Source of the DNA: Azoarcus sp. Aa7
GTDB taxonomy: Bacteria > Pseudomonadota > Gammaproteobacteria > Burkholderiales > Rhodocyclaceae
Direction of reading: 5' to 3'
Assembly: GCF_014822185.1 (NCBI RefSeq)
Contig: NZ_QVLR01000009.1
Coordinates: 124,001-188,000, forward strand
DNA: 64,000 nt
Shown: positions 4,679-19,020 of the stretch, piece by piece
Layout of the letters: each line of letters begins with the position of its first letter
Numbering within the stretch: the stretch's first letter is position 1
Made by a program: the position numbers and the translations under genes
Notes under the pieces: model-generated
What the model saw: the letters and a program-made list of their open reading frames with translations, nothing else
Databases searched by the model: none
Told to the model about the DNA's origin: nothing

Positions 4679-5056
4679 ATGAACCTGATTCAGCTGCTCG
4701 AACAGGAAGAAATCGCCCGCCTGAACAAGACCATCCCCGAGTTCGCCCCCGGCGACACCGTGGTGGTGCAGGTGAAGGTCAAGGAAGGCACGCGCGAGCG
4801 TCTCCAGGCCTACGAAGGCGTGGTGATCGCCAAGCGCAACCGTGGCCTGAACTCCAACTTCATCGTGCGCAAGATTTCGTCGGGCGAAGGCGTGGAGCGT
4901 ACGTTCCAGACCTACTCCCCGCTGGTCGACAGCATCGAAGTCAAGCGTCGCGGTGACGTGCGCCGTGCCAAGCTCTACTACCTGCGCGACCGCTCCGGCA
5001 AGTCCGCACGGATCAAGGAAAAGCTCAACTACAAGGGCACCGCGAAGCAGAACTGA
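4679..5056 (+). CDS. rplS: 50S ribosomal protein L19
   Basis: L19 sits at the 30S-50S interface. The 125-residue product carries the conserved [16 protein letters not shown] and [19 protein letters not shown] segments. An 82-bp gap separates it from trmD, and ACAGGAG precedes the ATG at a normal distance. A strong intrinsic terminator follows at 5085-5109, closing the operon. Confidence 0.97.
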
Positions 5057-5570: not shown

Positions 5571-5584
5571 TGGCGGAGAGTGAG
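5571..5584. repeat. attL, 14-bp remnant of the tRNA-Ser 3' end
   Basis: TGGCGGAGAGTGAG is identical to 12454-12467 in the tRNA-Ser gene and is not part of any tRNA here. Confidence 0.85.
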
Positions 5585-5659
5585 TCAGCCGAAATAGAAC
5601 TTTCTGCCGTATCACGTCGCATCACCGCAGACACAAAACGCTTACCGTCGTTGCTTTTG

Positions 5660-5717
5660 TTGTATACGGTCGTTTCACGTGCTATCGTTGAATCGCACCT
5701 CTTATGTTGGGTGCGAT
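5660..5717 (+). promoter_or_regulatory. Integrase promoter and inverted repeat near attL
   Basis: TTGTAT (5660-5665) and TATCGT (5683-5688) are spaced 17 bp apart. Immediately downstream, ATCGCACC (5692-5699) and GGTGCGAT (5710-5717) form an inverted repeat over the likely transcript start. Part of it, ATGTTGGGTGC (5704-5714), recurs at the other end of the element (12402-12412). It could be an operator or an integrase/excisionase arm site. Confidence 0.4.
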
Positions 5718-5738
5718 GCAGGATGCGGAGAAACGGCC

Positions 5739-6977
5739 ATGCCCAAGAAAGCCAAAGAACTTTCAGCTCTGGAAGTCCAGCGACTGACGAAGCCGGGATT
5801 GTACGCGGTCGGCGGAGTTGCGGGCCTGCAGCTCCAAGTTCTGCCGTCTAGCGCGCGGACATGGGTGTTGCGCGTTGTCATTGGCGGCAAGCGCCGGGAC
5901 ATGGGCTTAGGTGGATACCCTGACGTAACCCTCGCCGGAGCACGCGAGAAGGCCCGAGAAGCCCGCAACCTGATCGAGCAAGGCACAGACCCTATCGCAC
6001 AGCGCGCGGCCGCTCGTAGCGCCTTGGCAGCCTCACGAGGCGCTGAAATCACGTTCGATGAGTGCGCCCGCAAGTTCATCGAAGCCAAGTCCATCGAGTG
6101 GAAAAACCAGAAACATGGCGCGCAGTGGTCGGCAACCCTCGAAACCTACGCATCGCCCATTGTCGGAAAGCTCCAAGTGCGCGACGTAACGCTCGCTCAC
6201 ATCATCAAGATTCTGGAATCCCTCTGGACAACGAAGACGGAAACGGCAACCCGCTTGCGCGGTCGCATTGAAAGCGTGCTGGATTGGGCAACGGTGCGCG
6301 GATACCGCCACGGCGAGAACCCTGCGCGATGGAAAGGACATCTAGACAAAATCCTAGCGAAGCCCTCCAAGGTCGCAAAGGTCGAACACCATGCCGCCTT
6401 GGCCGTTGATGAACTCGGAGCCTTCATGAAGGCCCTGCGCAATCGCGGCGGCATGGCAGCCCGTGCGCTCGAAGTGCTGATTCTGACCGCCGCACGCTCC
6501 GGCGAGATACGTGGCATGCAGTGGGATGAAATCGACCTGCAGAACGCTGTCTGGACGATCCCCGGTGAGCGCATGAAGATGGGCAAGGAGCACCGCGTTC
6601 CGCTGACAGACCGCGTATTGGAGATTCTGCGCGCCCTTCCTCGCATTGATGACTCCCCGCTCGTCTTTCCTGCCCCGCGTGGCGGCATGTTGTCCGATAT
6701 GAGCATTACCGCAGTCTTGCGCCGCATGAATGTCGATGCGGTCCCGCACGGCTTCCGCTCGACGTTCCGCGATTGGGCTGCCGAGCGCACGAACTACCCG
6801 CGAGAAGTCGCAGAAATGGCCCTAGCGCACGCAATCGGCAACGCCGTCGAGGCCGCCTATCGTCGCGGCGACCTGTTCGATAAGCGCCGCAGGCTGATGA
6901 ACGATTGGACGAAATTCTGCGACACGGTGCAGAAGGCCGGCGACGTCGTACCGCTAAGGAGCATCACCGCCGCCTGA
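5739..6977 (+). CDS. Tyrosine-type integrase of the island
   Basis: A site-specific recombinase of 412 residues, likely responsible for insertion into and excision from the tRNA-Ser gene. It has an N-terminal arm-binding domain of the DUF4102 type (GGVAGLQLQVLPSSARTWVL), a central core-binding domain, and a C-terminal catalytic domain with Arg 253 (TAARSGEIRG), H337-x-x-R340 (HGFR), His 364 and the nucleophile Tyr 374 (EAAYRRGD). All catalytic residues are present. The start at 5739 (MPKKAKEL) matches the family and has GGAG upstream. It lies at the attL end, reading inward, away from the intact tRNA. Confidence 0.95.
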   Translation: MPKKAKELSALEVQRLTKPGLYAVGGVAGLQLQVLPSSARTWVLRVVIGGKRRDMGLGGYPDVTLAGAREKAREARNLIEQGTDPIAQRAAARSALAASRGAEITFDECARKFIEAKSIEWKNQKHGAQWSATLETYASPIVGKLQVRDVTLAHIIKILESLWTTKTETATRLRGRIESVLDWATVRGYRHGENPARWKGHLDKILAKPSKVAKVEHHAALAVDELGAFMKALRNRGGMAARALEVLILTAARSGEIRGMQWDEIDLQNAVWTIPGERMKMGKEHRVPLTDRVLEILRALPRIDDSPLVFPAPRGGMLSDMSITAVLRRMNVDAVPHGFRSTFRDWAAERTNYPREVAEMALAHAIGNAVEAAYRRGDLFDKRRRLMNDWTKFCDTVQKAGDVVPLRSITAA

Positions 6978-7059
6978 CGGACTCAGGCAAAGCGGGCCGC
7001 GCAACGTCTTGGAACACGGAGCGCGACCCTGACCACAACGTGAAAAGGAGCTTCACATC

Positions 7060-7317
7060 ATGGCTGAGAGAATTGTACGCAACGGCGTCGAGCTGGTCAC
7101 ACGCGAGTCGCTAATCAATGCGATGCAGATGAACATGGAGGAGATGGATTCTGTTCTGGATGCCCTGCAGATCATGCGCAAGATTGCGGAACGCGATGTT
7201 CGTGACCTGATGCTCGTCGGTCTAGCCGATGCTGCCATAGCAGCACTTGCAGCAATCCATAATGATCTGGATGTGGTGCGCGAGCAGGCCGAAAAATGCG
7301 GGCTTGTCACCGCATAA
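7060..7317 (+). CDS. Unknown island protein, 85 aa
   Basis: A predicted helical protein (AMQMNMEEMDSVLDALQIM; LADAAIAALAAIHNDLDVV) with AAAAGGAG 11 bp upstream of the ATG. There is no signal peptide, no membrane segment and no recognised domain. It starts 82 bp after the integrase and is followed 15 bp later by another small gene, so the two are probably co-transcribed. Base composition is AT-richer than the chromosome around the island. No function is proposed. Confidence 0.6.
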   Translation: MAERIVRNGVELVTRESLINAMQMNMEEMDSVLDALQIMRKIAERDVRDLMLVGLADAAIAALAAIHNDLDVVREQAEKCGLVTA

Positions 7318-7332
7318 CCTGGAGAATACATC

Positions 7333-7566
7333 ATGTCTACAGAAGATTTTTCAGATGACCGCGTCTTCATTGTTCGCCCCGGTGATCATCGCCTGGGGCT
7401 TGTCTGGAGCGATGAACGGGCCGGGTACGAACAGGCGTGCGACGGTCCGATCTTTGCCGTAGTGGGAGCAAACGCATCGGATGAAAAGCTCGGCAAGCTG
7501 TCGCAGAGATTCGGCTTCGAAATCTCTGAGTTGCGCCGATTCAGGGATACTGAAAAGACTCTCTGA
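7333..7566 (+). CDS. Unknown island protein, 77 aa
   Basis: A small acidic cytoplasmic protein (MSTEDFSDDRVFIVRPGDHRL start) preceded by CTGGAGAA, a good ribosome-binding site 8 bp before the ATG. No domain is recognised. It lies 15 bp after the 85-residue gene and 102 bp before the HhH-motif gene, in the AT-richer cargo pocket. Confidence 0.55.
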   Translation: MSTEDFSDDRVFIVRPGDHRLGLVWSDERAGYEQACDGPIFAVVGANASDEKLGKLSQRFGFEISELRRFRDTEKTL

Positions 7567-7668
7567 CCGCTTCACGCCGCCCCTACCAAAAGCCCGACAC
7601 CCTGCCGGCCTGGGGCGGCACCGTACGTGCCACACAAAACGCATCAACCCGTAATGGGGAGCGCATCC

Positions 7669-8292
7669 ATGAGCAACGAACTAATTGGCGGGCATGAATA
7701 TTTCGCAACCCTCCACCTTCGGACCCCGCTCGTTGTGCTCATGAAGGACGGCGAGCACACATCAAGCAAAACACCCCCAGATAACCCTTATGGCCTTGAG
7801 CACGGGATATGGGTTCCGACGATTCGATCATGGCGTGAGCTTGGGATTGATTTCGATGACGGACCGGAGAGCGACGTCGCCTCCGACATCGGACCAGTAA
7901 ATCGCGTCAAGTACCGCAATTTTCTTATCACAGTCAAAGCTGCTGCCAGCCAAGACGAGTCATCTATTGCTGAAAGAATAAATCGCATCAAAGAGGTGTT
8001 GAAGCTACCGGAGCACAAAGCATTCTGTCGGCGACTCGGTGGCCAGACAGCGATCATCGATGCACTTTTTCCGCCTGTAGTTTCCATGATTTGCGGCATT
8101 ACAAAGCCGGCATCTGCTGCCCTCTGGAAATCAGGACTGCGCACCATTGAGAAGATCAACAAGGCTGACGATTCGCGACTGCTAGCGTTATCCGGAATAG
8201 GAAAAAAGACGCTGGATGTACTTCGCGCTTTTTGCGCCCAGTATTCTGGGGACTTGAGAGCAGAACGATATACTCCATCCAACGACGTCTGA
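7669..8292 (+). CDS. Unknown protein with a C-terminal helix-hairpin-helix motif
   Basis: A 207-residue soluble protein. Near the C-terminus, LLALSGIGKKTLDVLRAF has the LxxxxGIGxKT pattern of a helix-hairpin-helix non-specific DNA-binding motif, as found in DNA repair and nuclease proteins. The N-terminal ~120 residues are not recognised. Three in-frame ATGs exist; the one at 7669 is chosen because GGGGAG lies 8 bp upstream. DNA binding is inferred from the motif alone. It is in the AT-rich pocket, so it may be cargo such as an anti-phage or nucleic-acid-processing gene, but nothing in the sequence shows this. Confidence 0.55.
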   Translation: MSNELIGGHEYFATLHLRTPLVVLMKDGEHTSSKTPPDNPYGLEHGIWVPTIRSWRELGIDFDDGPESDVASDIGPVNRVKYRNFLITVKAAASQDESSIAERINRIKEVLKLPEHKAFCRRLGGQTAIIDALFPPVVSMICGITKPASAALWKSGLRTIEKINKADDSRLLALSGIGKKTLDVLRAFCAQYSGDLRAERYTPSNDV

Positions 8293-8324
8293 CGGATGAA
8301 ACACCAAGAAGAACGAGGTGAAGC

Positions 8325-8858
8325 GTGATTAACAGACGCGAGATCAAACCCGGCGCATGGGAATACCTGGATCAAGATGAGTCGTGCTTTGTGTGGGAAA
8401 TGTCCATCGGCCGTAATTCGACAGACGGAAACATAGAAGGCATCGATAACTTCATCCTTGACCCGCACACTCCTGACGACGTGAAGGCCACACTTCTGGA
8501 ACATCGCCATAACGCATTCGAGGCATACAAACGCAAGGATTTCGCCCTATGTGATGCTCATGTCGCGCGATTGCACGAATGCTGCCGATACCACGGTCTA
8601 TCGATAGCTGTGCGGCCGCTTTCCGAGACTGGAAGGAAGGTGAAGGATGGAGCTCGCACAGGGCATGAACTAGTGCATGGCACCGACGAACAGAAGCGGG
8701 CTCGATGGGACACGTATTGCAGCGACTACGACAGGGTATCCAGAGAAAACCATGCGTGGCCGCAAAAATCCATCGTAATGACCGTTGCCGAGGCAAATGG
8801 CGTTTGCGAGAGAACTATTTATCGCGCACTGAAATGGCGCAAAAATGAAGGAACCTAG
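8325..8858 (+). CDS. Unknown protein with a C-terminal helix-turn-helix-like segment
   Basis: A 177-residue protein starting at GTG 8325, with GAGGTG 4 bp upstream. The C-terminal segment TVAEANGVCERTIYRALKWR has the pattern of a helix-turn-helix (AEANGVCERTIYRAL), which suggests DNA binding. The N-terminal part, rich in charged and aromatic residues, is not recognised. It follows the HhH-motif gene by 32 bp and could be in the same transcript. Confidence 0.55.
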   Translation: MINRREIKPGAWEYLDQDESCFVWEMSIGRNSTDGNIEGIDNFILDPHTPDDVKATLLEHRHNAFEAYKRKDFALCDAHVARLHECCRYHGLSIAVRPLSETGRKVKDGARTGHELVHGTDEQKRARWDTYCSDYDRVSRENHAWPQKSIVMTVAEANGVCERTIYRALKWRKNEGT

Positions 8859-8870
8859 TTATTAATTCGT

Positions 8871-8888
8871 GACAGTCCGGCCACTGTC
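8871..8888. promoter_or_regulatory. Palindromic operator candidate upstream of alpA
   Basis: GACAGT-CCGGCC-ACTGTC is a perfect inverted repeat of 6-bp arms whose 6-bp spacer is itself palindromic (CCGGCC). It lies 60 bp before the AlpA start in a non-coding gap of 89 bp. It is a plausible binding site for a dimeric regulator controlling the right half of the island. Confidence 0.4.
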
Positions 8889-8947
8889 AATAATGCAAAG
8901 AAAGATGATGTTCCTAACCGCAACAACGCGGTGTAACGGAGCACATC

Positions 8948-9139
8948 ATGAAAAAAAGCCTTCGCCCAAGTCAGGCCGCTGAGTTTCTTGGAATCAGCCG
9001 GGTAACTATCTATCGCTGGATCAGAGAACGTCCAGACTTCCCGCGGCCAATTCATCTTTCCTCTCGCTGCACCGTGTTCGATCAGGATGCACTGATCGCA
9101 TTTCGGGACGCGCACTCCACCGGCCGCAAAGCGGCTTAA
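8948..9139 (+). CDS. AlpA-type helix-turn-helix regulator / excisionase-like
   Basis: A 63-residue protein with the AlpA/MerR-like fold: LRPSQAAEFLGISRVTIYRWI (helix-turn-helix, residues ~5-25), FPRPIHLSS and FDQDALIAF. AlpA proteins switch on excision or late genes in prophages, P4-like satellites and islands, and are often the recombination directionality factor. GTAACGGAG lies upstream of the ATG. Here it separates the AT-rich cargo pocket from the GC-richer replication/structural genes. Role inferred from family. Confidence 0.85.
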   Translation: MKKSLRPSQAAEFLGISRVTIYRWIRERPDFPRPIHLSSRCTVFDQDALIAFRDAHSTGRKAA

Positions 9140-9151
9140 GGAGGCGCGGTC

Positions 9152-9538
9152 ATGCTAGCGACGACCCCTGCAAACGACAAAGCCTCCCTGGCCGGAGGCT
9201 CTGACGCTAAAACAAATTGCGCGACGACCAGCGCATTTTACACCAGCAGTGAAAGCAGCACGCACCTTCCCCGCGTAAGCAACCCGCGCGAGTGGCGCGC
9301 CTTGATGGCGCTCGCCGCGCGCGACCTGTCGCGCGAACAAATGGACAGGACAGCAGGCGCGAGCAATTCGCCTGACCTGATGAAACGCTGCCGAGAGCGG
9401 TACGGCCTCGACATTCCGTGCATCAAGGAAACCGTGCGCGACCGTGACGGCCTCGAAGTGCAGCGAGGCGTCTATCGCCCGACCGCTGCCGACCGCCGCC
9501 GCATCCGTCAATTGCTCGCGCGCAGGGGGACGCGATGA
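9152..9538 (+). CDS. Island protein, 128 aa, winged-helix-like
   Basis: A 128-residue basic protein. The first ~45 residues are Ser/Thr/Ala-rich and probably disordered. The middle and end (REWRALMALAARDLSREQM; LMKRCRERYGLDIPC; TAADRRRIRQLLARRG) resemble the short helical DNA-binding-like proteins found beside AlpA in integrated elements. It starts 12 bp after alpA behind GGAGG (9140-9144), and its TGA abuts the ATG of the next gene, indicating tight translational coupling. Function not known. Confidence 0.6.
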   Translation: MLATTPANDKASLAGGSDAKTNCATTSAFYTSSESSTHLPRVSNPREWRALMALAARDLSREQMDRTAGASNSPDLMKRCRERYGLDIPCIKETVRDRDGLEVQRGVYRPTAADRRRIRQLLARRGTR

Positions 9539-9931
9539 ATGGGCCGCGAACGCACGAAAAACCGCGTAGGCGGGCGATTCCTCGCGCTGCCGCATCAGGT
9601 GATGGACTGCCCCGCATTCATCGGCTTGAGCGCGCCGGCAACGCGTCTGCTGTTGGATATGGCGCGCCAGTTTGCAGGCACGAACAACGGAAAGTTGCTC
9701 TGCACGCTTTCGGTGATGCGCAAACGCGGGTGGAGCAGCAACGACACGTTGTGTCGTGCTCGCAAGGAACTGGAGGCCGCGCGGTTCATCCAGAAAACCC
9801 GCGAAGCATGGATGCCGCGCCGCGCCGCATGGTTCGGCCTGTGCTGGCTGCCGCTGGACTACGACCCCGCAATGGACATCAAACCGGGCGAGTTCCTGAC
9901 GAAGCAATACCTGCTTGCAACGCCGACGTAA
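9539..9931 (+). CDS. Probable replication-module protein, 130 aa
   Basis: A basic 130-residue protein (MGRERTKNRVGGRFLALPHQV) with a helix-turn-helix-like central part (LSAPATRLLLDMARQFAGTNNGKLLCTLSVMRKRG; SNDTLCRARKELEAARFI). This organisation is seen in small DnaD/RepA-like replication proteins of islands and phages. An iteron-like repeat cluster begins 14 bp after its stop, as expected if it binds an origin there. The ATG directly follows the previous gene's stop. A replication role is inference from context and motif style; a transcriptional regulator is the alternative. Confidence 0.6.
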   Translation: MGRERTKNRVGGRFLALPHQVMDCPAFIGLSAPATRLLLDMARQFAGTNNGKLLCTLSVMRKRGWSSNDTLCRARKELEAARFIQKTREAWMPRRAAWFGLCWLPLDYDPAMDIKPGEFLTKQYLLATPT

Positions 9932-9944
9932 AACAAAACATGGC

Positions 9945-10067
9945 ACCGGCTCCCGGTAACACGACCTGTCCTACTGTACCGGCTCCCGGTAACACGAATC
10001 GCGCCGTGTTACCGGGAGCCGGTTCTATGGGGCCGGTTTTCCGCGTTTCCGTGTTACCGGCTCCCGG
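9945..10067. repeat. Iteron-like repeat cluster with a perfect 19-bp stem (candidate origin or operator)
   Basis: There are four copies of one motif. ACCGGCTCCCGGTAACACGA occurs at 9945-9964 and 9978-9997. Its inverted 19-bp core is at 10005-10023. A shortened direct copy, ACCGGCTCCCGG, is at 10056-10067. Copies two and three form a perfect 19-bp stem with an 8-base loop (9997-10004). The cluster occupies the gap between the replication-like gene and the next gene; no T run follows the stem, so it is not a typical terminator. The rest of the 362-bp gap (10068-10293) shows a normal ribosome-binding site (AGGAG) before 10294 and nothing else recognised. Confidence 0.8.
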
Positions 10068-10293
10068 ACGCTATTTAGATATTGCCATCTGCAGCAGCTT
10101 TCTACGGGAAGCGTCTGGAGGGGTGGAGGGTGCGCGCGGCCCCTCGAAATCACCCCTTGGCGGAGACGCGATCCGCCCGACAGCCCGCCATTCTGGCATT
10201 GCAGACCGTCGCGACGCGATGCCCAACCTCACACCCCACAGAACCGCCCCGACCGGAAGCCGGGAAATCCATCCTCACCAGGAGCAATGAACC

Positions 10294-11046
10294 ATGAACC
10301 TCGAATTCAAGCTCGGACCTGCACGCTTTGAAATGCCGCCCGCACCGTTTGACATGGCGAGCCCGCCGGAGCCGGCATTGTTTTTCACGGTCGCGCTGGA
10401 ATCCGCGAAGGACTACATCGGCAGCCGGGCGGCCGTGCTCGCCGATAAGCGGCTTTCCGATGTCGGCAAGGACGAGAAGATGGAACCGCTTACCGCCGCG
10501 ATGGCGGACCGGCTCGGACACGCGTTAAGTGGCCTCGAAAACTTCGAAGACCACCTCGCCGCCGTCGACGCCGAATTGATGGCAGTCGCGGCACCTGTGA
10601 CCCCCTTCGAAATCTCGCAGCAGAAAGAGACGCGCGAATGGTGGCGGTCGCTGCCCAACAAAGGCCGGCTGGACGCGCTCGACAAGATGAAGTCGGACCC
10701 GGTCGCCTACCGAGGCGTCATTCATTCACTGCTGAACAGCCCGATTCCGGGCGACCTGCACGGGCACGAATTGGCGTTCATCGAGGAGCTGCACCGCACG
10801 GCCCGCGAACACGAGCGCCCCGACTTGGCGGTCAAGCTGCGCGATGGCCGCGCCGCACAAGAATGGGCGCGTCGTGGCTTCGGCCACCTTCGCGGACTGC
10901 TGAAGATGACGACCGGCATCGATGACGCGCAACTGTTGCGACACTTCGCATGGCGCGAAGGTGGCCGCCAAGCCCTTCGCGCTTTGGGCTTCACACCGTC
11001 CGACATCGAACGCGCACAGATGGCCGCGAAGCGTCGCGCAGCGTAA
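10294..11046 (+). CDS. Unknown island protein, 250 aa
   Basis: A soluble, largely helical, Ala/Glu/Arg-rich protein of 250 residues (MNLEFKLGPARFEMPPAPFDM start) preceded by CAGGAGCA. It has no signal peptide, membrane segment or recognised motif. It starts the right-hand gene group, which leads to a phage neck/tail-completion protein, so it may belong to a packaging or assembly-interference module; that is speculation from position. It is GC-rich, unlike the left-hand cargo genes. Confidence 0.6.
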   Translation: MNLEFKLGPARFEMPPAPFDMASPPEPALFFTVALESAKDYIGSRAAVLADKRLSDVGKDEKMEPLTAAMADRLGHALSGLENFEDHLAAVDAELMAVAAPVTPFEISQQKETREWWRSLPNKGRLDALDKMKSDPVAYRGVIHSLLNSPIPGDLHGHELAFIEELHRTAREHERPDLAVKLRDGRAAQEWARRGFGHLRGLLKMTTGIDDAQLLRHFAWREGGRQALRALGFTPSDIERAQMAAKRRAA

Positions 11047-11055
11047 GGGGCAATC

Positions 11056-11331
11056 ATGGCGCGCGGTGGCGACGAAAACATGGTGGAAGTGCTTGATGCT
11101 GTAGGCGTACCCGCGCGCCCCTCCCCCCGGCTGCGACTGAGCACGATTCGCGACTGCCGGCGAGAGTTGGCGCGCGTCTATGCCGAGGTGCGCGCCGGAA
11201 CCCTTGAGCCGCAGACCGGGACGCGGCTTGCCTATCTGCTGCAGGCAATGGTCGGGATGATTCGCGACGGCGACCTAGAGCAGCGCATTGCCGCACTCGA
11301 AGCGGCATCGAAGGAGAATCACGCAAGATGA
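11056..11331 (+). CDS. Island protein, 91 aa, of a type found near phage packaging genes
   Basis: A 91-residue helical protein whose core (LRLSTIRDCRRELARVYAEVRAG, TRLAYLLQAMVGMIRDGDLEQRIAALE) resembles small proteins encoded beside terminase genes in prophages and islands; I cannot assign it firmly to the small-terminase family. AAGGGG lies 6 bp before the ATG at 11056. Its stop overlaps the start of the tail-completion gene by four bases (ATGA), so the two are coupled. Confidence 0.6.
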   Translation: MARGGDENMVEVLDAVGVPARPSPRLRLSTIRDCRRELARVYAEVRAGTLEPQTGTRLAYLLQAMVGMIRDGDLEQRIAALEAASKENHAR

Positions 11332-11720
11332 AGAGCTTTAGTCAGCAACTGAGCAGCGCGGTCGTCCGCATCAACCAACAGACCGAGCAGGCAGTCCGCA
11401 AGGTGATATTCGAGTGCTTTCGTTCGGTCATCCTCAAGTCGCCCGTAAAAACTGGTCGCTTCCGCGCCAACTGGAAGCCCGGTATCGGCTCGATTCCCGA
11501 AGGCGTAATCAACGAACTGGACCCGTCAGGCGGCAAGACGATTCAGAAGGTGTTGATCGAAACCGAAGATGCGATGGCCTTGGTGATGGACGGACGGCCG
11601 CTCTACATCGTCAATCACGTCCCCTATGGTCTTGCGCTCGAATTTGGATCATCGAAGCAAGCGCCTTCCGGAATGGTCCGCACCACACTGGCCGAAATCG
11701 CGGCCAAGTATGGCGCGTGA
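11328..11720 (+). CDS. HK97-gp10-like phage neck / tail-completion protein
   Basis: A 130-residue protein with hallmarks of the HK97-gp10-like tail-completion/neck family: the early SPVKTGRFRANW motif and the late YIVNHVPYGLALEFGSSKQ followed by APSGMVRTTLAEI. In phages, such proteins connect head and tail. Neighbouring capsid, portal and tail genes expected of a prophage are absent. In this satellite-sized element it may modify or substitute a helper phage's neck, or be a relic. It overlaps the previous gene by four bases (ATGA). Family assignment is from motif recognition. Confidence 0.75.
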   Translation: MKSFSQQLSSAVVRINQQTEQAVRKVIFECFRSVILKSPVKTGRFRANWKPGIGSIPEGVINELDPSGGKTIQKVLIETEDAMALVMDGRPLYIVNHVPYGLALEFGSSKQAPSGMVRTTLAEIAAKYGA

Positions 11721-11769
11721 GAACAGGAGATGGCGACAATCCCCTTGAACGGCTTGTGGAGCATTTTCT

Positions 11770-11979
11770 ATGACGCTCGCCAAACGACTGGAACGCTTGG
11801 AGCAACGCAACGAGGCCGCCGAACTGCCGCCCGCTGCGCTCACGCTCTTGCCGGGCTGCGACGAAGCTGCAGAACGCGCGAAGTTCGAGCAAATCCACGG
11901 CAGGCCGCCCGCGCTGGTGATCCGCCTCACAGTCAAGGATGCCCGTGTCCGTCCGGACCCCGACGAGGTGCAGACATGA
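11770..11979 (+). CDS. Small island protein, 69 aa, N-terminal coiled coil
   Basis: A 69-residue protein beginning MTLAKRLERLEQRNEAAEL, a short amphipathic or coiled-coil segment. Its N-terminus resembles that of the next gene (MKAIETRLAALESKLAAME). Its stop overlaps the next start (ATGA). No function is recognised. Confidence 0.55.
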   Translation: MTLAKRLERLEQRNEAAELPPAALTLLPGCDEAAERAKFEQIHGRPPALVIRLTVKDARVRPDPDEVQT

Positions 11980-12209
11980 AAGCGATTGAAACCCGCCTGG
12001 CCGCGCTCGAAAGCAAGCTGGCCGCAATGGAGCAACGCGGAACGTGCGCCATCGTGCTCGAAGATGGCGAGGACTTCGCCGCCGCCTGCACGCGCCTTGG
12101 CATCAAGGACGGCGGTTATCTCGTCGTGCGGCGCATCCTGACGGCCGAAGAGTTCGCGCAGTGCGCACCGGAGCAGCAGCGCAGATTACTCGACACTGGC
12201 GACGACTGA
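11976..12209 (+). CDS. Small island protein, 77 aa, N-terminal coiled coil
   Basis: A 77-residue protein with an N-terminal coiled-coil stretch (residues 1-20) followed by a small alpha/beta-like part (IVLEDGEDFAAACTRLGI, GGYLVVRRIL). The start at 11976 overlaps the previous stop (ATGA); a longer in-frame opening from 11730 lacks such coupling. It is the last gene of the right-hand group, closed by a terminator at 12228-12260. Function unknown. Confidence 0.55.
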   Translation: MKAIETRLAALESKLAAMEQRGTCAIVLEDGEDFAAACTRLGIKDGGYLVVRRILTAEEFAQCAPEQQRRLLDTGDD

Positions 12210-12227
12210 CCCGTAGAAGCCCCTTCG

Positions 12228-12260
12228 AAGCCCCTTCCAGTCAAAAGGAAGGGGCTTTTT
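12228..12260 (+). terminator. Rho-independent terminator of the island's right-hand gene group
   Basis: AAGCCCCTTCC (12228-12238) and GGAAGGGGCTT (12247-12257) form an 11-bp stem with an 8-base loop, followed by T residues, 18 bp after the last island gene. Confidence 0.9.
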
Positions 12261-12266
12261 ACTTTC

Positions 12267-12336
12267 TGGCAACACCTTGCATGCGTGGCAGCGCAGCCGA
12301 AGAGCAAAGGTGCAACGTTGCACCATTGGCAACACC
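12267..12336. repeat. Direct repeat and palindrome near attR
   Basis: TGGCAACACC occurs at 12267-12276 and 12327-12336, flanking a perfect 16-bp palindrome GGTGCAACGTTGCACC (12309-12324). The stretch 12261-12416 has no convincing gene. ATGTTGGGTGC at 12402-12412 also matches the left end (5704-5714). These are candidates for integrase/excisionase arm sites or an operator. Confidence 0.5.
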
Positions 12337-12414
12337 CGGCCGCGCGCCGGGGTTTTTGTGCCCGCTCAGGCCGATCAAGCGTTTGGGCTTAGTGGGGCAG
12401 GATGTTGGGTGCAA

Positions 12415-12445
12415 GAAAAAAGCGCCCCGAAAGGCGCTTGTTTCT
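12415..12445 (-). terminator. Terminator now serving the tRNA-Ser(GCU) gene
   Basis: The stem AAGCGCC / GGCGCTT (loop CCGAAA) has an A run at 12415-12421 that reads as a T run on the minus strand, about 10 bp beyond the tRNA 3' end. It lies inside the element, so the island appears to bring its own terminator for the tRNA. Confidence 0.7.
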
Positions 12446-12453
12446 TGATGCTG

Positions 12454-12467
12454 TGGCGGAGAGTGAG
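12454..12467. repeat. attR, 14-bp repeat inside the tRNA-Ser 3' end
   Basis: TGGCGGAGAGTGAG is identical to attL at 5571-5584 and corresponds to the CCA end, discriminator and acceptor strand of the tRNA on the minus strand. Confidence 0.85.
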
Positions 12468-12547
12468 GGATTCGAACCCTCGATACGAGTTTTAGCCCGT
12501 ATGCTCCCTTAGCAGGGGAGTGCCTTCGACCTCTCGGCCAACTCTCC
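12454..12547 (-). tRNA. tRNA-Ser (anticodon GCU)
   Basis: On the minus strand the gene begins GGAGAGTTGGCCGAGAGG and ends with an encoded CCA. It has the long variable arm typical of tRNA-Ser, the anticodon loop CTGCTAA (anticodon GCU) and a GGTTCGAATCC T-arm. The acceptor strands GGAGAGT and ACTCTCC pair perfectly. It reads AGC/AGU serine codons. It is intact and marks the right boundary of the integrated element. Confidence 0.97.
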
Positions 12548-14412: not shown

Positions 14413-15267
14413 TCAGGGGCTGACGCGAACCGTCAGCCCCGTTTTTCTTATGCGCTCGGCGATCGCCTCGAGCTCGGCCTCGGTGAGTGGCGACAGGCGC
14501 GGCGCCTCGGACTGCATCGAGGGACGCGCGATGCCGTAGAGCAGCACCCCGGCGAGGCGTTCGACGCCGGCCTTTTCCAGTACGGCCACATACGCGGCGA
14601 TGTCCGCATCGGACGGCGCCTGCCCGTCCCAGCGGAACATGCAGGTCTGCACCCAGGTCGTGCAGCGCTCGGCGCTCGCCTGCAGGCGGCGCGCGACCGC
14701 ATCGGGGTCGGGTCCGACGCCGTTGATGCGACGCATACCTGCCCGCGTGCCCGCATCGACCTTGAACCATACTTCCCCGCCCGCTTCACCCAGCCGACGC
14801 ACCCCTTCGCGCACGGTCACCTGCCCCATCAGGCTGCCGTTGGTGATGAGGCGCAGCGGCACCTCGGTGCCGAATCCGAAACGCGCCCGCAGGCGTACCG
14901 CGATCCCGACCGCATCGGCGAATTCGGCTGCGCTGGTCGGCTCGCCATTGCCGGAGAAGGCGATGTCGCGGACCTGGCGCAAGCCTTCGGGGACGTGCCG
15001 CACGAGGTAGTCGCCATGCACGAGCGCATCGAGGAAACCGCCGAGCTCGGCCTCGAGTTGCGCGAGGTCGATTGGCGGCGCACTGCCGCGCACGAGGTCC
15101 GGCACCTGGCAGTAGACGCAATGCCAGTTGCAGGCGTTGTTGGGATTGAGGTTGATGCCGACGGAGACGCCACCGGCACGGCGCGACAGCACCGGATAGA
15201 CGTAGGTGAGCCCCGCGAGATCGCGGTCGTGGTTGCGGATCGTGAGTTGCCGGTCGCTGGATGCCAT
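14413..15267 (-). CDS. Radical SAM protein
   Basis: A 284-residue radical S-adenosylmethionine enzyme with the cluster motif C46xxxC50xxC53 (CNWHCVYC) and a downstream FSGNGEPTS segment, equivalent to the GGE-type SAM-binding motif. FGTEVPLRLITNGSLM and GGEVWFKVDAGT are further core strands. The product reaction is not known. It is divergent from queD, but it lacks the features of QueE (7-carboxy-7-deazaguanine synthase), so a queuosine role is not supported. The start at 15267 (MASSDRQLT) is chosen because the upstream extension is low-complexity and overlaps the queD promoter. The stop lies at the edge of a convergent terminator. Confidence 0.85.
   Translation of the reverse strand: MASSDRQLTIRNHDRDLAGLTYVYPVLSRRAGGVSVGINLNPNNACNWHCVYCQVPDLVRGSAPPIDLAQLEAELGGFLDALVHGDYLVRHVPEGLRQVRDIAFSGNGEPTSAAEFADAVGIAVRLRARFGFGTEVPLRLITNGSLMGQVTVREGVRRLGEAGGEVWFKVDAGTRAGMRRINGVGPDPDAVARRLQASAERCTTWVQTCMFRWDGQAPSDADIAAYVAVLEKAGVERLAGVLLYGIARPSMQSEAPRLSPLTEAELEAIAERIRKTGLTVRVSP
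14416..14447 (+). terminator. Terminator of the XRE regulator gene, overlapping the convergent coding end
   Basis: GGGGCTGAC (14416-14424) and GTCAGCCCC (14432-14440) form a perfect 9-bp stem followed by GTTTTT. The hairpin begins one base after the convergent radical SAM stop codon, so it also encodes that protein's last residues. Confidence 0.9.
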
Positions 15268-15338
15268 CGATGTAGGTGCCGCGAATCGCGGTCGAAGGAA
15301 GCAAGGGGCGCCCGGAATGGGCGATCGGGGTCGGGTGC

Positions 15339-15344
15339 TATAAT
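15339..15344 (+). promoter_or_regulatory. -10 element of queD
   Basis: A perfect TATAAT lies 27 bp before the queD ATG in the divergent gap; the -35 region is weak. Confidence 0.45.
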
Positions 15345-15371
15345 CCGCGCCCTGCACTCCCGAGGTCAATC

Positions 15372-15827
15372 ATGCGCATCACCCGCCGCCTGGAATTCGA
15401 CGCAGGCCACCGGATTCCGGACCACGCCAGCCAGTGCCGCCACCTGCACGGCCACCGTTACGCGATCGAGATCACCCTGTCCGGGGGAATCATCGAAGCC
15501 GCCGGCCAGCCGGTCAATGGCATGGTGATGGACTTCGGCGAGGTGAAGACGATCGCCAAGGCGCATGTCGTCGACGTCTGGGACCACGCCTTCCTGGTGT
15601 TCCGCGGCGATGCGCAGGTCATGCAGTTCCTCGCCTCGATGCCGGGCCACAAGACCGTTGTGCTCGACTGCGTGCCGACTGCCGAGAATCTCGCACGCGA
15701 GGCCTTCCGCATCCTCGACCCGCGCTACCACGACAGCTACGGCAACCATCTGCGCCTCGAGCGCGTGCGCCTGTACGAGACGCCCAACTGCTGGGCCGAC
15801 GCCGTGCGCTGCGACGCCGGCCTCTGA
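15372..15827 (+). CDS. queD: 6-carboxy-5,6,7,8-tetrahydropterin synthase family protein (QueD)
   Basis: QueD converts 7,8-dihydroneopterin triphosphate to 6-carboxytetrahydropterin on the way to queuosine and other 7-deazapurines. The 151-residue product has the zinc ligands His 13, His 26 and His 28 (HLHGH), the catalytic Cys 22 (SQCRHLHGHRY), and the MVMDFGEVK and WDHAFL segments of the PTPS/QueD fold. The start at 15372 gives the family's MRITRRLEFDAGH N-terminus. Other queuosine genes are not in the window. Confidence 0.9.
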   Translation: MRITRRLEFDAGHRIPDHASQCRHLHGHRYAIEITLSGGIIEAAGQPVNGMVMDFGEVKTIAKAHVVDVWDHAFLVFRGDAQVMQFLASMPGHKTVVLDCVPTAENLAREAFRILDPRYHDSYGNHLRLERVRLYETPNCWADAVRCDAGL

Positions 15828-15840
15828 CGCAGCGGCAGGA

Positions 15841-17136
15841 TCAGTCCTCTGCCGCGGCGGCGGCGACCGCCTGCGCCAGCGCGGCCTCGCCGTGCACGAC
15901 GCGCACCTCGCGCTGCGGGTAGGGGATCTCGATGCCCTCGGCACGGAAGCGCTTCCACACTTCGAGATTGATGTGGGAGATCACGCCCAGCGTGCCTTCC
16001 TGCGGGTCGGCGATCCATACCGCGAGGCGCAGGTCGACGCCGCTCTCGCCGAAGGCGACGACGAAGGCCTTGGGCTCCGGCTCCGCGATCACGCGCTCAT
16101 GCGTCTTCGCCGCCTCGACAAGGATCTGCATCGCGCGCTCCAGGTCCGTGGCATAGCTCACCTGGATGTTGATCGGCACGACGATGCGCGTGTCGCTGTA
16201 GGTTTCGTTCTGCACGACGGAGCCGATCAGGGTCTCGTTCGGCACCAGCGATTCGATGCCGCTCGCCGCGCGCAGCACCGTGTAGCGGGTGTTGATCTGG
16301 GTGACGACGCCGCGCTCGGTACCGACGGAGATCAGGTTGCCGATGCGCAGGGAACGGTCGAGCAGGATGATGAAACCGGAGACGTAGTTCGCTGCGATCT
16401 TCTGCAGGCCGAAGCCCAGGCCCACACCCAGCGCGCCGCCGAAGACCGACAGCGTGGTGAGATCGATGCCGACCATGGGCAACGCGATCAGCACGGCGAC
16501 GACGATCAGGAGCGCCTTCGCGACCCGCATCAGCACGAGACGCATGCTGTCGTCGAGGCCCGCGGCGGCGCTCAGGCGGCGTTCCAGTGCTCCCGCCGCC
16601 CACAGCGCGATGAGCAGGGTGAACATCACCATGCCGGCGCCCTGCAGCAGGGTCCATAGCGAGAGCTTCTGGCTGCCGATCTTGAAGGACACGCTCTCGA
16701 GCGCGTCGATCACCTCCGGCAGCCAGCCGAGGATATGCAACGCGACCACGGCCCACGCGAGCGACGCGAAGATGCGTTCGAAGTTGCCCAGCCAGCTCGA
16801 ACGGCCGATGCCCTGCCGCACCGTGAAGACGACGAAGCGGATCGCGGCAAACGAGGTCAGCAGGGGCACCGCCAGATTGAGCAGGTGCACGCTCTGGTAC
16901 TTGCCCAGCACGGCGCGCGCGGCGAACACGAAGATCAGCGCCGACAGCGGGAACAGCACGCGGCGCAGGCCGCTGCGGCCGAAGCGCCGGGCGGCGGTTT
17001 CGGCGTCGCCGCTGCGTGCGACGCGCGCGAGCATCGCACGTTCGATCAGCCACGCGAGCAGGAGACAGCCGACCAGGGCGCCGAGCTGCCACAGGATGGA
17101 GGGGCTCTGCAGGTCGCTCCAGGTATCCATGAGCAT
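15841..17136 (-). CDS. MscS-family mechanosensitive channel
   Basis: An inner-membrane protein of ~431 residues with about six membrane segments. The pore-lining MscS signature LTTLSVFGGALGVGLGFGLQKIAANYVSGFIILLDR is followed by the beta domain (GNLISVGTERGVVTQINTRYTVLR) and a C-terminal alpha/beta domain. It should open under membrane tension during hypo-osmotic shock. Start choice is uncertain: ATG 17136 is listed; a GTG at 17178 would overlap the upstream nuclease gene by 19 bp. It is last in a leftward run from purN. Confidence 0.9.
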   Translation of the reverse strand: MLMDTWSDLQSPSILWQLGALVGCLLLAWLIERAMLARVARSGDAETAARRFGRSGLRRVLFPLSALIFVFAARAVLGKYQSVHLLNLAVPLLTSFAAIRFVVFTVRQGIGRSSWLGNFERIFASLAWAVVALHILGWLPEVIDALESVSFKIGSQKLSLWTLLQGAGMVMFTLLIALWAAGALERRLSAAAGLDDSMRLVLMRVAKALLIVVAVLIALPMVGIDLTTLSVFGGALGVGLGFGLQKIAANYVSGFIILLDRSLRIGNLISVGTERGVVTQINTRYTVLRAASGIESLVPNETLIGSVVQNETYSDTRIVVPINIQVSYATDLERAMQILVEAAKTHERVIAEPEPKAFVVAFGESGVDLRLAVWIADPQEGTLGVISHINLEVWKRFRAEGIEIPYPQREVRVVHGEAALAQAVAAAAAED

Positions 17137-17159
17137 AGCGGCGAAACGAATCTCTTCTT

Positions 17160-17750
17160 TCACGTTCCGGGTTTCCACGGCAGACGGGTGATGCGGGTGG
17201 CGTCCGCGCGATGACGGCGCCAGTTGTCGAGGTAGATCTGCGTCAGCGTGCAGTTGTCGCGCAGCACGAGGAGGTTTTCGGCGTTGCGCTTGACGGCCGA
17301 CTTCGTGAAGTTGAACGAGCCGGTGACCAGCGCGCAGGCGGGGCCGTCGGCGTCGGCAATCATGACCTTGTTGTGGGCAGCGGCAAAGCGCGTCTCGAGC
17401 GATACCGGGATGCCGGCCGCGAGCAGTTCGGGCAGCACGTTGCCCTTGCCGCGCTTGTTCATCTTCGCGTCGGCGAGCACTTCGACGCGCACGCCGCGCT
17501 GGTGCGCGTCGATCAGCGCGCGCGCGATCGGCTTGCTCGTGAAGGCGTAGGCCTGCACATGCAGCGTCTTGCGCGCGTCGTCGATGACGTCGATCAGCAG
17601 CGCCTCGGGGCGATCGGCCGGGGAAAACGCAACCTCGACCGAGCCGCGCGCGGGCAGCCGCTGGCTCGCCGCGGCGACTTGCGCCGCCATGGCGATGAAC
17701 GCGAGGGCGACGCCTGCGAGCAGTCGCCCCGATACATCACGCCCCTGCAT
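17160..17750 (-). CDS. Secreted phospholipase-D-family nuclease
   Basis: A ~196-residue periplasmic protein. A signal-peptide-like segment (LLAGVALAFIAMAAQVAAA) is followed by one PLD domain with the HKD motif HNKVMIADADGPACALVTGS and the following NFTKSAVKRNAENLLV. This is the arrangement of the Nuc/EndA single-domain nucleases, which work as dimers. The start at 17750 (MQGRDVSG) overlaps the rsmB 3' end by 14 bp; earlier starts would lack a clean signal peptide. Nuclease activity is inferred from the family. Confidence 0.85.
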   Translation of the reverse strand: MQGRDVSGRLLAGVALAFIAMAAQVAAASQRLPARGSVEVAFSPADRPEALLIDVIDDARKTLHVQAYAFTSKPIARALIDAHQRGVRVEVLADAKMNKRGKGNVLPELLAAGIPVSLETRFAAAHNKVMIADADGPACALVTGSFNFTKSAVKRNAENLLVLRDNCTLTQIYLDNWRRHRADATRITRLPWKPGT

Positions 17751-19020
17751 CCACACGCTCCAGCACGGCCGCGAAGAAGCCGTCGGTGTCATGCACGCGC
17801 GGCGTCAGGCGCAGGCGCTCGCCGGTGGCGAGCACGATGCCCTGCTTGCCGAGCACGTCGGTGGCGCTGACCTGGCGGAATTCGGGATGCGCAGCGAGGA
17901 AGGCGTCGACGATGCCGTCGTTCTCCTCGGCGAGCAGGCTGCAGGTCGCATACACGAGGCGGCCGCCCGGTTTCACGAGGCGTGCGGCCGACTCGAGGAT
18001 CGCGCCCTGCTTGGCGACCATCTCGGCGACCGACTCGGGGGTCTGGCGCCACTTCAGGTCGGGGTTGCGGCGCAAGGTGCCCAGCCCGCTGCACGGCGCA
18101 TCGACCAGCACACGGTCGGCCTTGCCGGCGAGGCGCTTCACCTTGGCGTCGCGTTCGTGGGCGATCAGCACCGGATGCACGTTCGACAGGCCGGCGCGGG
18201 CGCAGCGCGGCTTGAGCTTGGCGAGGCGCTTCTCGGACACGTCGAAGGCGTACAGGCGGCCGGTCGAGCGCATCAGCGCGCCGAGCTGCAGCGTCTTGCC
18301 GCCGGCGCCGGCGCAGAAATCGACGACCAGTTCGCCGCGCTTGGGCTGCACGAGGAAGCCGAGCAATTGGCTACCCTCGTCCTGCACCTCGAAGGAGCCG
18401 TCGAGAAACAGCGGATGCTTCTGCAGCGCGGGCTTGCCGGCGAGGCGGATGCCCTGCGGCGAGTACGGGCAGGGGGCGGCCGCGATGCCGTTCACCTTGA
18501 ATGCCTCGAGTACCTTGTCGCGCTCCGTTTTCAGTACGTTCACGCGCAGGTCGAGCGGTGCGGCGCGGTTGAGGCTGTGCGCGAGCTCGAGCAGCGTGGC
18601 TTCGTCATGCGTCGCGAGCAGGCGCTCGGCGAGCCAGTCCGGCATGTCGGCGCGTTCGCCGAGCGAGCCCTCGTCGAGTTCCTTGGCCTTGATCCCCGAG
18701 ATCCAGTCGCGCTCGGTGGCCGACGCGAGGCCTTCGAAGTTGCGCATCGGCCAGCCCTCGCCGCGCGCGAGCCACGCCAGCAAGAGGGTGCGCGGACGCG
18801 CGTCGTCGCCGACGAGGCGGCGCAGCCAGCGCAGGCGCCGCACGATGCCGTAGACCGCCTCGGCGATGAAGCCGCGGTCGCGATGGCCGATCTCGCGGTT
18901 CTCGCGGAAGTGCCGCGACAGGACGACGTCGGCCGGATGTTCGAAGGTGAGCACCGCCCCGAGGACCTGGGCGGCGTGGATCAGCAGGCCGCGCGAGGCG
19001 GCCTCTTCATGTCTTGCCAT
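17737..19020 (-). CDS. rsmB: 16S rRNA m5C967-type methyltransferase (RsmB)
   Basis: A SAM-dependent RNA cytosine-5 methyltransferase of 427 residues, close to E. coli RsmB in length. It has an N-terminal NusB-like helical RNA-binding domain (~1-140) and a C-terminal Rossmann domain with VDFCAGAGGKTLQLG (SAM-binding), DAPCSGLGTLRRNPDLKW and the nucleophile motif YATCSLL. It follows the DUF3108 gene by 9 bp in the betaproteobacterial purN-DUF3108-rsmB order. Target C967 is inferred from the family. Confidence 0.9.
   Translation of the reverse strand: MARHEEAASRGLLIHAAQVLGAVLTFEHPADVVLSRHFRENREIGHRDRGFIAEAVYGIVRRLRWLRRLVGDDARPRTLLLAWLARGEGWPMRNFEGLASATERDWISGIKAKELDEGSLGERADMPDWLAERLLATHDEATLLELAHSLNRAAPLDLRVNVLKTERDKVLEAFKVNGIAAAPCPYSPQGIRLAGKPALQKHPLFLDGSFEVQDEGSQLLGFLVQPKRGELVVDFCAGAGGKTLQLGALMRSTGRLYAFDVSEKRLAKLKPRCARAGLSNVHPVLIAHERDAKVKRLAGKADRVLVDAPCSGLGTLRRNPDLKWRQTPESVAEMVAKQGAILESAARLVKPGGRLVYATCSLLAEENDGIVDAFLAAHPEFRQVSATDVLGKQGIVLATGERLRLTPRVHDTDGFFAAVLERVDAGA

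Follow-up and report, generated by a model that had tools for sequence, protein, structure and literature searches.

The 3' end of the tRNA-Ser(GCU) gene of Azoarcus sp. Aa7 is occupied by an inserted unit of 6,883 bp, counted with a single att copy, and this locus raises the question of what kind of mobile element carries one phage neck gene among so few others. The unit lies in a stretch of 64,000 nucleotides (contig NZ_QVLR01000009.1, positions 124,001 to 188,000), hereafter the window, to which all positions refer. A preliminary description had proposed a compact phage satellite, possibly an undescribed system. Three properties are established: exact insertion at the 3' end of the tRNA gene, a backbone of integrase (int), AlpA, Rep and iterons whose Rep recurs in many tRNA and tmRNA islands, and a conserved neck gene within the gene run. 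It is considered most plausible, with a probability of roughly 0.58, that the element is a compact satellite resembling the phage-inducible chromosomal islands (PICIs), with a presumed helper, induction and packaging, whose neck protein would act at the head–tail joint of the helper and there divert or poison assembly.

Boundaries and gene content of the element

The ends of the element are marked by a 14-bp direct repeat, TGGCGGAGAGTGAG, of which the 64-kb window holds exactly two copies with up to one mismatch allowed (5571-5584 and 12454-12467); 100 shuffles gave a mean of 0.03 matches and a maximum of 1. The right copy is the final 14 nucleotides, including CCA, of tRNA-Ser(GCU), which lies on the minus strand at 12454-12547. 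When joined at the repeat, the flanks align in one piece with five congeners, G002 (95%), G016 (91%), G005 (89%), G003 (89%) and G009 (87%), and base-by-base comparison shows that the empty site of G002 agrees with both junctions of the window. Junctions and empty sites together therefore define the inserted unit, and a larger prophage surrounding it is ruled out because the five congeners show just this 6,883-bp insert. The genus sample comprises 17 genomes: the host, G001, in which the site is filled by another element, the five with empty sites, and ten in which the joined flanks gave no one-piece alignment. One of the five, G003, carries the sister element described below on a different contig. 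The repeat matching the tRNA 3' end and the self-contained, exactly bounded element of the preliminary description are thus borne out. The junction comparison with relatives that it had called for found five uninterrupted congeners, and neither related genomes with the same genes lacking the left repeat as a boundary nor an enclosing prophage appeared.

The insert restores tRNA-Ser(GCU) and supplies the gene with a terminator-like hairpin of its own; a similar native hairpin, recognized by sequence and not folded, now lies left of attL. The left neighbour is taken to be rplS (4679-5056) and the right neighbour lysC.

All 13 genes, chosen from the list of open reading frames (ORFs), are on the plus strand and run rightward from int. 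They begin with int and six small genes including that for AlpA, followed by a short rep, four iterons, g9, g10, the gene for a neck protein of type Ne1, two small genes and a terminator-like hairpin. Protein families were scanned with Pfam (13/13 proteins) and PHROGs (10/13 proteins). The features are as follows.

5571..5584, no strand: attL, left repeat TGGCGGAGAGTGAG (repeat search, empty-site alignment)
5739..6977, +: tyrosine integrase, 412 aa (Pfam Arm-DNA-bind_3 1.2e-19, Phage_int_M 1.2e-29, Phage_integrase 6.3e-16)
7060..7317, +: g2, 85 aa, without significant family match
7333..7566, +: g3, 77 aa; one homologue, in sibling locus L129 (1e-13)
7669..8292, +: g4, 207 aa; C-terminal helix-hairpin-helix 8.8e-5 (below the Pfam cut-off); phrog_22882, unknown function, 4.2e-11
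8325..8858, +: g5, 177 aa; weak C-terminal helix–turn–helix, below cut-off
8948..9139, +: AlpA-type regulator/excisionase candidate, 63 aa (PF05930 2.3e-9)
9152..9538, +: g7, 128 aa, directly upstream of rep; homologue in L098 (7.6e-14); 80% identical in the sister element
9539..9931, +: Rep, 130 aa, putative short O-type replication initiator (weak match to phrog_678; homologues elsewhere)
9945..10067, no strand: iteron array, 4 x CCGGTAACACG, two per strand; putative origin, then an AT-richer stretch
10294..11046, +: g9, 250 aa, helical throughout in a model of low confidence
11056..11331, +: g10, 91 aa; family common to L015, L085, L095, L123 and L131 (each E<1e-9)
11328..11720, +: Ne1-type neck / tail-completion protein, 130 aa (phrog_169 'tail completion or Neck1' 4.5e-40)
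11770..11979, +: g12, 69 aa; 74% identical in the sister element
11976..12209, +: g13, 77 aa; start overlaps the g12 stop
12227..12260, +: intrinsic-terminator-like hairpin and T run after g13 (z -2.5)
12412..12447, -: terminator-like hairpin carried by the element, downstream of where the tRNA ends (z -3.9)
12454..12467, no strand: attR, right repeat = tRNA 3' end
12454..12547, -: tRNA-Ser(GCU), intact target gene

The stop of g10 and the start of the neck gene overlap as ATGA, as do g12 and g13, and the terminator-like hairpin ends the gene run. The intact integrase and AlpA noted at the outset are confirmed by their Pfam matches. The lack of conjugation genes also holds, no relaxase or conjugation family being found in 13/13 proteins by Pfam (no oriT search was made). 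The PHROGs and Pfam scans made gave no informative match for g2, g3, g5, g7, g9, g10, g12 or g13. For g9 there was no phage match by tblastn and none in scans of viral and genome contigs, BLASTP shows no similarity to the 263-aa protein at the same place in the sister element, and the structure model (pLDDT, the predicted local confidence score, 49) is too poor for a structure search; g9 was dropped as a candidate widespread marker for want of such matches. Neither g10 in plasmids nor its relative, the L085 protein, in phages gave a match.

The same attB is occupied in G001 by an 11.7-kb element (L019:6536-18001; L040 = contig C212, 140535-152265) with a Rep homologue and an integrase 64% identical to that of the window. 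It encodes a Cas3-like protein (3.3e-8), Csb1 (Cas_GSU0053 4.3e-32) and Csb2 (Cas_GSU0054 2.5e-15) and contains a repeat array of 72-bp period; by eye, no ORF for Cas8/Csx17, Cas1 or Cas2 was seen. It has the appearance of a compact tRNA island carrying a minimal CRISPR-Cas system of type I-G/U.

The Rep–iteron backbone and its relatives

Rep gives a weak match to phrog_678, 'replication initiation O-like' (E 0.059). Its profile retrieved one PDB chain, a replication initiator, at E 0.6, which was not used. Directly 3' of rep, CCGGTAACACG is present in four exact copies at 9953-10060, with no further exact copy in the window; with one mismatch allowed there are five matches, against a mean of 0.73 in 100 shuffles, none of which reached five. 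This single cluster is not accompanied by a second set of the motif within the element. A 9-mer is repeated three or more times around the rep 3' end at 40/58 loci, compared with 11.7% of 2,012 control windows, and four or more times at 19/58 compared with 1.1% (the controls leave out one locus with a CRISPR array). Inspection by eye shows recurrent spacings of about 22, 33 and 44 bp, the pattern expected if the sites share one helix face.

Counting the host, Rep has homologues in 8 of 41 relatives, in 30 of 399 genomes of the order (E≤1e-12) and in 20 of 370 genomes of the class (profile search, E≤1e-15). They are rare outside, with one in 50,697 phage records and one in 72,556 plasmid records (E≤1e-5), and on the latter count a plasmid-type Rep was rejected. 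Of the replication-like gene with iterons in the preliminary description, the iterons stand, their four copies exceeding the shuffles; the gene has only its weak profile match, yet its homologues recur in tRNA islands.

A sister element, L015, on a 12,693-bp contig of Aromatoleum evansii, retains the gene order of the window element. The proposed search for a family conserving this gene order thus found the order in the sister and the backbone in siblings. Identity to the window is 68% for int, 59% for g4, 77% for AlpA, 80% for g7, 42% for g10, 60% for the neck and 74% for g12, while Rep is 93-94% identical and the origin region 82% over 216 bp. Because the identities differ along the element, the sequence comparison suggests module exchange. 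The ratio of non-synonymous to synonymous substitution (dN/dS) between the two is at most about 0.2 for five genes (int, g4, AlpA, Rep and g12) and higher for g7 (0.37) and g10 (0.45). The ends of L015 carry a 14-bp sequence of tRNA-Ser type (the label is our own reading) in copies 8,279 bp apart, on a contig without a tRNA, and the element has one additional cargo gene, whose matches to glycosyltransferase and TPR families are below threshold.

Of the 57 Rep loci fetched, 22 could be delimited automatically by a repeat that pairs the end of a tRNA or tmRNA with a site past rep, as islands of 4.2-11.7 kb. The repeats measure 12 to 76 bp and reach at least 17 bp in 15/22; the pairs of the other seven have just 12 to 16 bp, and individual ones may be due to chance. 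In three tRNA-Ser cases (L021, L085 and L088) int lies at the end opposite the tRNA, as in the window. The delimited set comprises 24 elements, among them L095, bounded by a contig end and a host gene (no att pair), and L083, with bounds set by hand. Six of the 24 carry virion genes, one or two each.

L015: neck
L095: Dit-like tail protein (PF21821 4e-32)
L092:6207-16516: capsid (phrog_617 1.8e-40) and tape measure protein (1.2e-30)
L083:4213-11979: capsid (4.2e-12) and tape measure protein (2.8e-24)
L100: protease (5.1e-40) and capsid (7.1e-19)
L110: capsid (3.1e-71)

No portal or large terminase is found among all 40 right-side ORFs of these six; for 18 of the 40 every matched family was listed. 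A single small-terminase match (2.4e-6), by eye at L110:6275-6595, represents a packaging part known from PICIs. The tape measures of L083 and L092 are weakly alike (24-27 bits), and these two elements have no recognized virion genes besides capsid and tape measure, the presumed determinants of head size and tail length. An HNH protein of L092 matches mainly phage HNH families. A scan of right-side ORFs of the 24 elements found a major head protein in four members and a tape measure in two (among 25 of 96 families listed), whereas control ORFs outside the elements gave neither (among 25 of 74 families listed); one control ATPase, at L015, matched a large-terminase profile at 2.5e-9. The right-side scan covered 86 of 102 ORFs (L099 had none; one L085 start was moved; 16 judged likely spurious were left out) and the control scan 86 of 202, and either count may miss some virion genes. 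The right-end cargo differs among siblings, some of which carry defence-like genes (AriA, GajA and MTase_I profiles).

At a further Rep locus, L087, large- and small-terminase-like ORFs (14912-18057) lie about 5 kb from the Rep homologue; no int match and no longer att pair were found there by eye. These ORFs could belong to a neighbouring prophage.

The neck protein and its proposed role

The match to phrog_169 substantiates the single phage neck gene of the preliminary description. The necks of the window and L015 form a clade of their own (support 100/96) and are 59-61% identical, with synonymous divergence (dS) saturated. An alignment of 24 phage necks has 17 invariant columns, of which the L015 protein keeps all 17 and the window protein 16, the remaining one being changed from L to V. 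The neck gave no match to PDB sequences and none by Foldseek at E<0.001, the rest of the VIA list being unrelated chains. According to PMC4362835, the Ne1 protein of P2 (gpS) is needed to join heads to tails, and that of lambda (gpZ) for particles to be fully infectious. We infer that an intact, phage-like neck as the sole recognized virion gene of a compact island is best explained by action on the particles of a helper or competitor. Its action is likely at head–tail joining, benefit and sabotage not being told apart.

The following course of events may be envisaged. A phage signal would raise AlpA, which together with Int would excise the element; the role of AlpA as excision trigger is taken from what is reported of PICIs and of phage-inducible chromosomal minimalist islands (PICMIs) in PMC6092414 and PMC10803314. 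Rep would bind the iterons just 3' of its own gene and recruit host or helper replication proteins, neither a primase nor a helicase being recognized in the element, and the helper phage would package the element DNA. The neck protein, made late with g9-g13, would enter helper particles at the head–tail joint, where it would either make satellite-filled heads tail-competent or compete with the helper neck, lowering helper yield.

A resident prophage with the same neck, which might serve as helper, was not found in the host. The two host Phage_capsid matches turned out to sit in two further compact islands. That of contig C47 (L217:6809-16301; tRNA-Lys, 49-bp repeat, 9,444 bp) encodes an integrase, a primase and a capsid (1.4e-39), besides a protein matching small terminases (2.8e-18); that of contig C14 (L218:3504-11894; tRNA-Met, 47-bp repeat, 8,344 bp) encodes an integrase, a helicase/primase-like protein and a capsid (1.5e-15). 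Neither contains a homologue of the window Rep, and the 10 proteins scanned include no head or tail gene beyond the capsids except the small-terminase match. Pseudomonas phage vB_Pae_U1 (L213, PP003913.1), considered as a packaged relative, was not used, as its record extends into Rhs genes and resembles a called genome region. This 'complete genome' resembles an int-cox-RepO-primase island continuing into Rhs genes and may be mis-delimited.

Several observations weigh against a satellite acting through its neck. No helper is known: a second homologue of the neck is absent from the host, and among the 17 genomes of the genus (host counted) 15 have none at all; the host genome also lacks a PF04860 portal match, other portal families not having been tried. 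None of 80 neck-bearing IMG/VR loci, taken from 301, contains a Rep homologue, and packaging has thus left no sign there. A neck gene on its own is a rarity, two such elements having been found, and the other 18 of the 24 delimited siblings show no visible virion match. The link between Rep and phage O proteins is weak, the saturated dS leaves the constraint on the neck lacking a dN/dS figure of its own, and g9, the longest gene without an assigned function, has a model of low confidence (pLDDT 49).

The neck could instead be a pure anti-phage decoy of a satellite or defence island, poisoning the head–tail joining of invaders and taking no part in satellite particles. The tail-assembly inhibitor Tai occurs in PICIs and P4-like elements (PMC11364771), and the defence-like genes of some siblings and the Cas genes at the same att in G001 would suit such a role. 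However, Tai is not described as a neck homologue in the part of PMC11364771 consulted, the start of the neck gene overlaps the g10 stop, and the 16 of 17 invariant columns retained are as expected for a working joint, although a decoy may need them too; this explanation is judged unlikely. A decayed prophage of which the ends and a few genes remain would also leave a phage-like element with one virion gene and genes of unknown function, yet the att is precise, the 13 ORFs are intact and dN/dS is low for five genes. In addition, the sister keeps the gene order, and the same Rep–iteron backbone occurs across many genera with different or no recognized virion genes, so convergence by independent decay is not easy and a remnant is highly improbable.

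Integrative mobilizable elements, transferred by conjugation through an oriT and the relaxase of another element, can take the form of small tRNA islands that contain int and Rep, and an oriT without relaxase is hard to see. The absence of relaxase and conjugation families, the near-absence of Rep from plasmids and the recurrence of virion genes in siblings nevertheless leave this little probability. The variable right-end cargo of the siblings would be compatible with an autonomous tRNA island that acquired its neck gene by chance, as a neutral passenger; but both neck-bearing elements keep an intact gene, in one clade, despite their deep divergence, and such a passenger is very improbable. 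The compact phage satellite of the preliminary description thus remains the best-fitting reading, although an inferred one, with helper, induction and packaging presumed.

Known satellites redirect packaging or capsid size. If the proposed role is true, a satellite-borne neck protein shifts the conflict to the head–tail joining step, and could explain how tiny islands pick whose tails to use or block competitors. As a tentative and rather doubtful extension, the Rep–iteron islands might be one unrecognized satellite family that samples virion modules, swapping one or two parts to control different joints of helper assembly, in which case the window element would be the first satellite to parasitize head–tail joining via its own neck protein. 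Single virion parts that differ between related elements point to a little-explored way to exploit or sabotage phages, and the siblings with different parts on one backbone (6/24) are a ready comparison set. The host genus is not known to be pathogenic. Although the element is small and as yet unproven, the pattern across the family lends itself to testing and was not found described in the titles and abstract openings of the open literature.

Comparison with known satellites

In its integrase, AlpA, one-directional rightward gene order and small size the element resembles Gram-negative PICIs such as EcCICFT073 and PmCI172, in which, as reported in PMC6092414, Rep is directly followed by an iteron origin, as it is by the putative one here. 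Some of these carry a capsid-morphogenesis homologue (PMC6092414), in place of which the window element has a neck gene. They also have pri or pri-rep, whereas no primase family is found in 13/13 window proteins by Pfam and Rep has 130 aa. The PICI origin consists of two iteron sets around an AT-rich region, compared with one cluster directly 3' of rep here, and PICIs measure 10-15 kb (PMC11364771), the window element being shorter. The neck homologue stands alone, with no significant match to terS or capsid (10/13 proteins by PHROGs, 13/13 by Pfam). Capsid-forming PICIs carry their own capsid, portal and terminase, a set of which nothing is found in the Pfam scans of all 13 proteins.

The PICMIs of Vibrionaceae (prototype about 6 kb; PMC10803314) share the very small size, int, AlpA, a replication gene and small unknown genes between int and alpA. 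Their model, as given there, includes a DUF3987/DUF5906 primase and a fis site, whereas the window element has no such primase and uses tRNA-Ser(GCU); and they are said to lack capsid-remodelling genes (PMC10803314), whereas it carries a neck gene. Of the P4-like components named in the part of PMC8628076 consulted (Psu, delta, epsilon and alpha), none is found in 13/13 proteins by Pfam. The tmRNA islands such as I55, for which transfer by a jumbo phage is reported (PMC12595487), share the tyrosine integrase and AlpA, a 14-bp repeat at the end of the target gene and the lack of autonomous transfer genes. They are larger (an approximately 18-kb region is common to three islands), frequently contain RadC, YqaJ and others, and a Rep/iteron/neck module is not described in the text of PMC12595487 considered.

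A further parallel is Ccm of SaPIbov5, likewise a satellite-borne homologue of one virion protein, which redirects helper assembly according to PMC8569155. Ccm is a capsid protein, however, whereas the window protein is a head–tail joint protein, and any effect would fall on joining and not on head size. Searches of the open PMC literature, judged by titles and abstract openings, showed neither a satellite with a lone neck gene nor such a Rep family. The claim of an undescribed system accordingly holds in part: int, AlpA, Rep and origin in one direction resemble the Gram-negative PICIs (PMC6092414), while the short Rep without primase and the lone neck gene are unusual. The element is not placed in the PICI, PICMI or P4-like families because no primase, common to all three, is recognized; it has the outline of a Gram-negative PICI, yet represents a variant of the phage-satellite kind outside these families.

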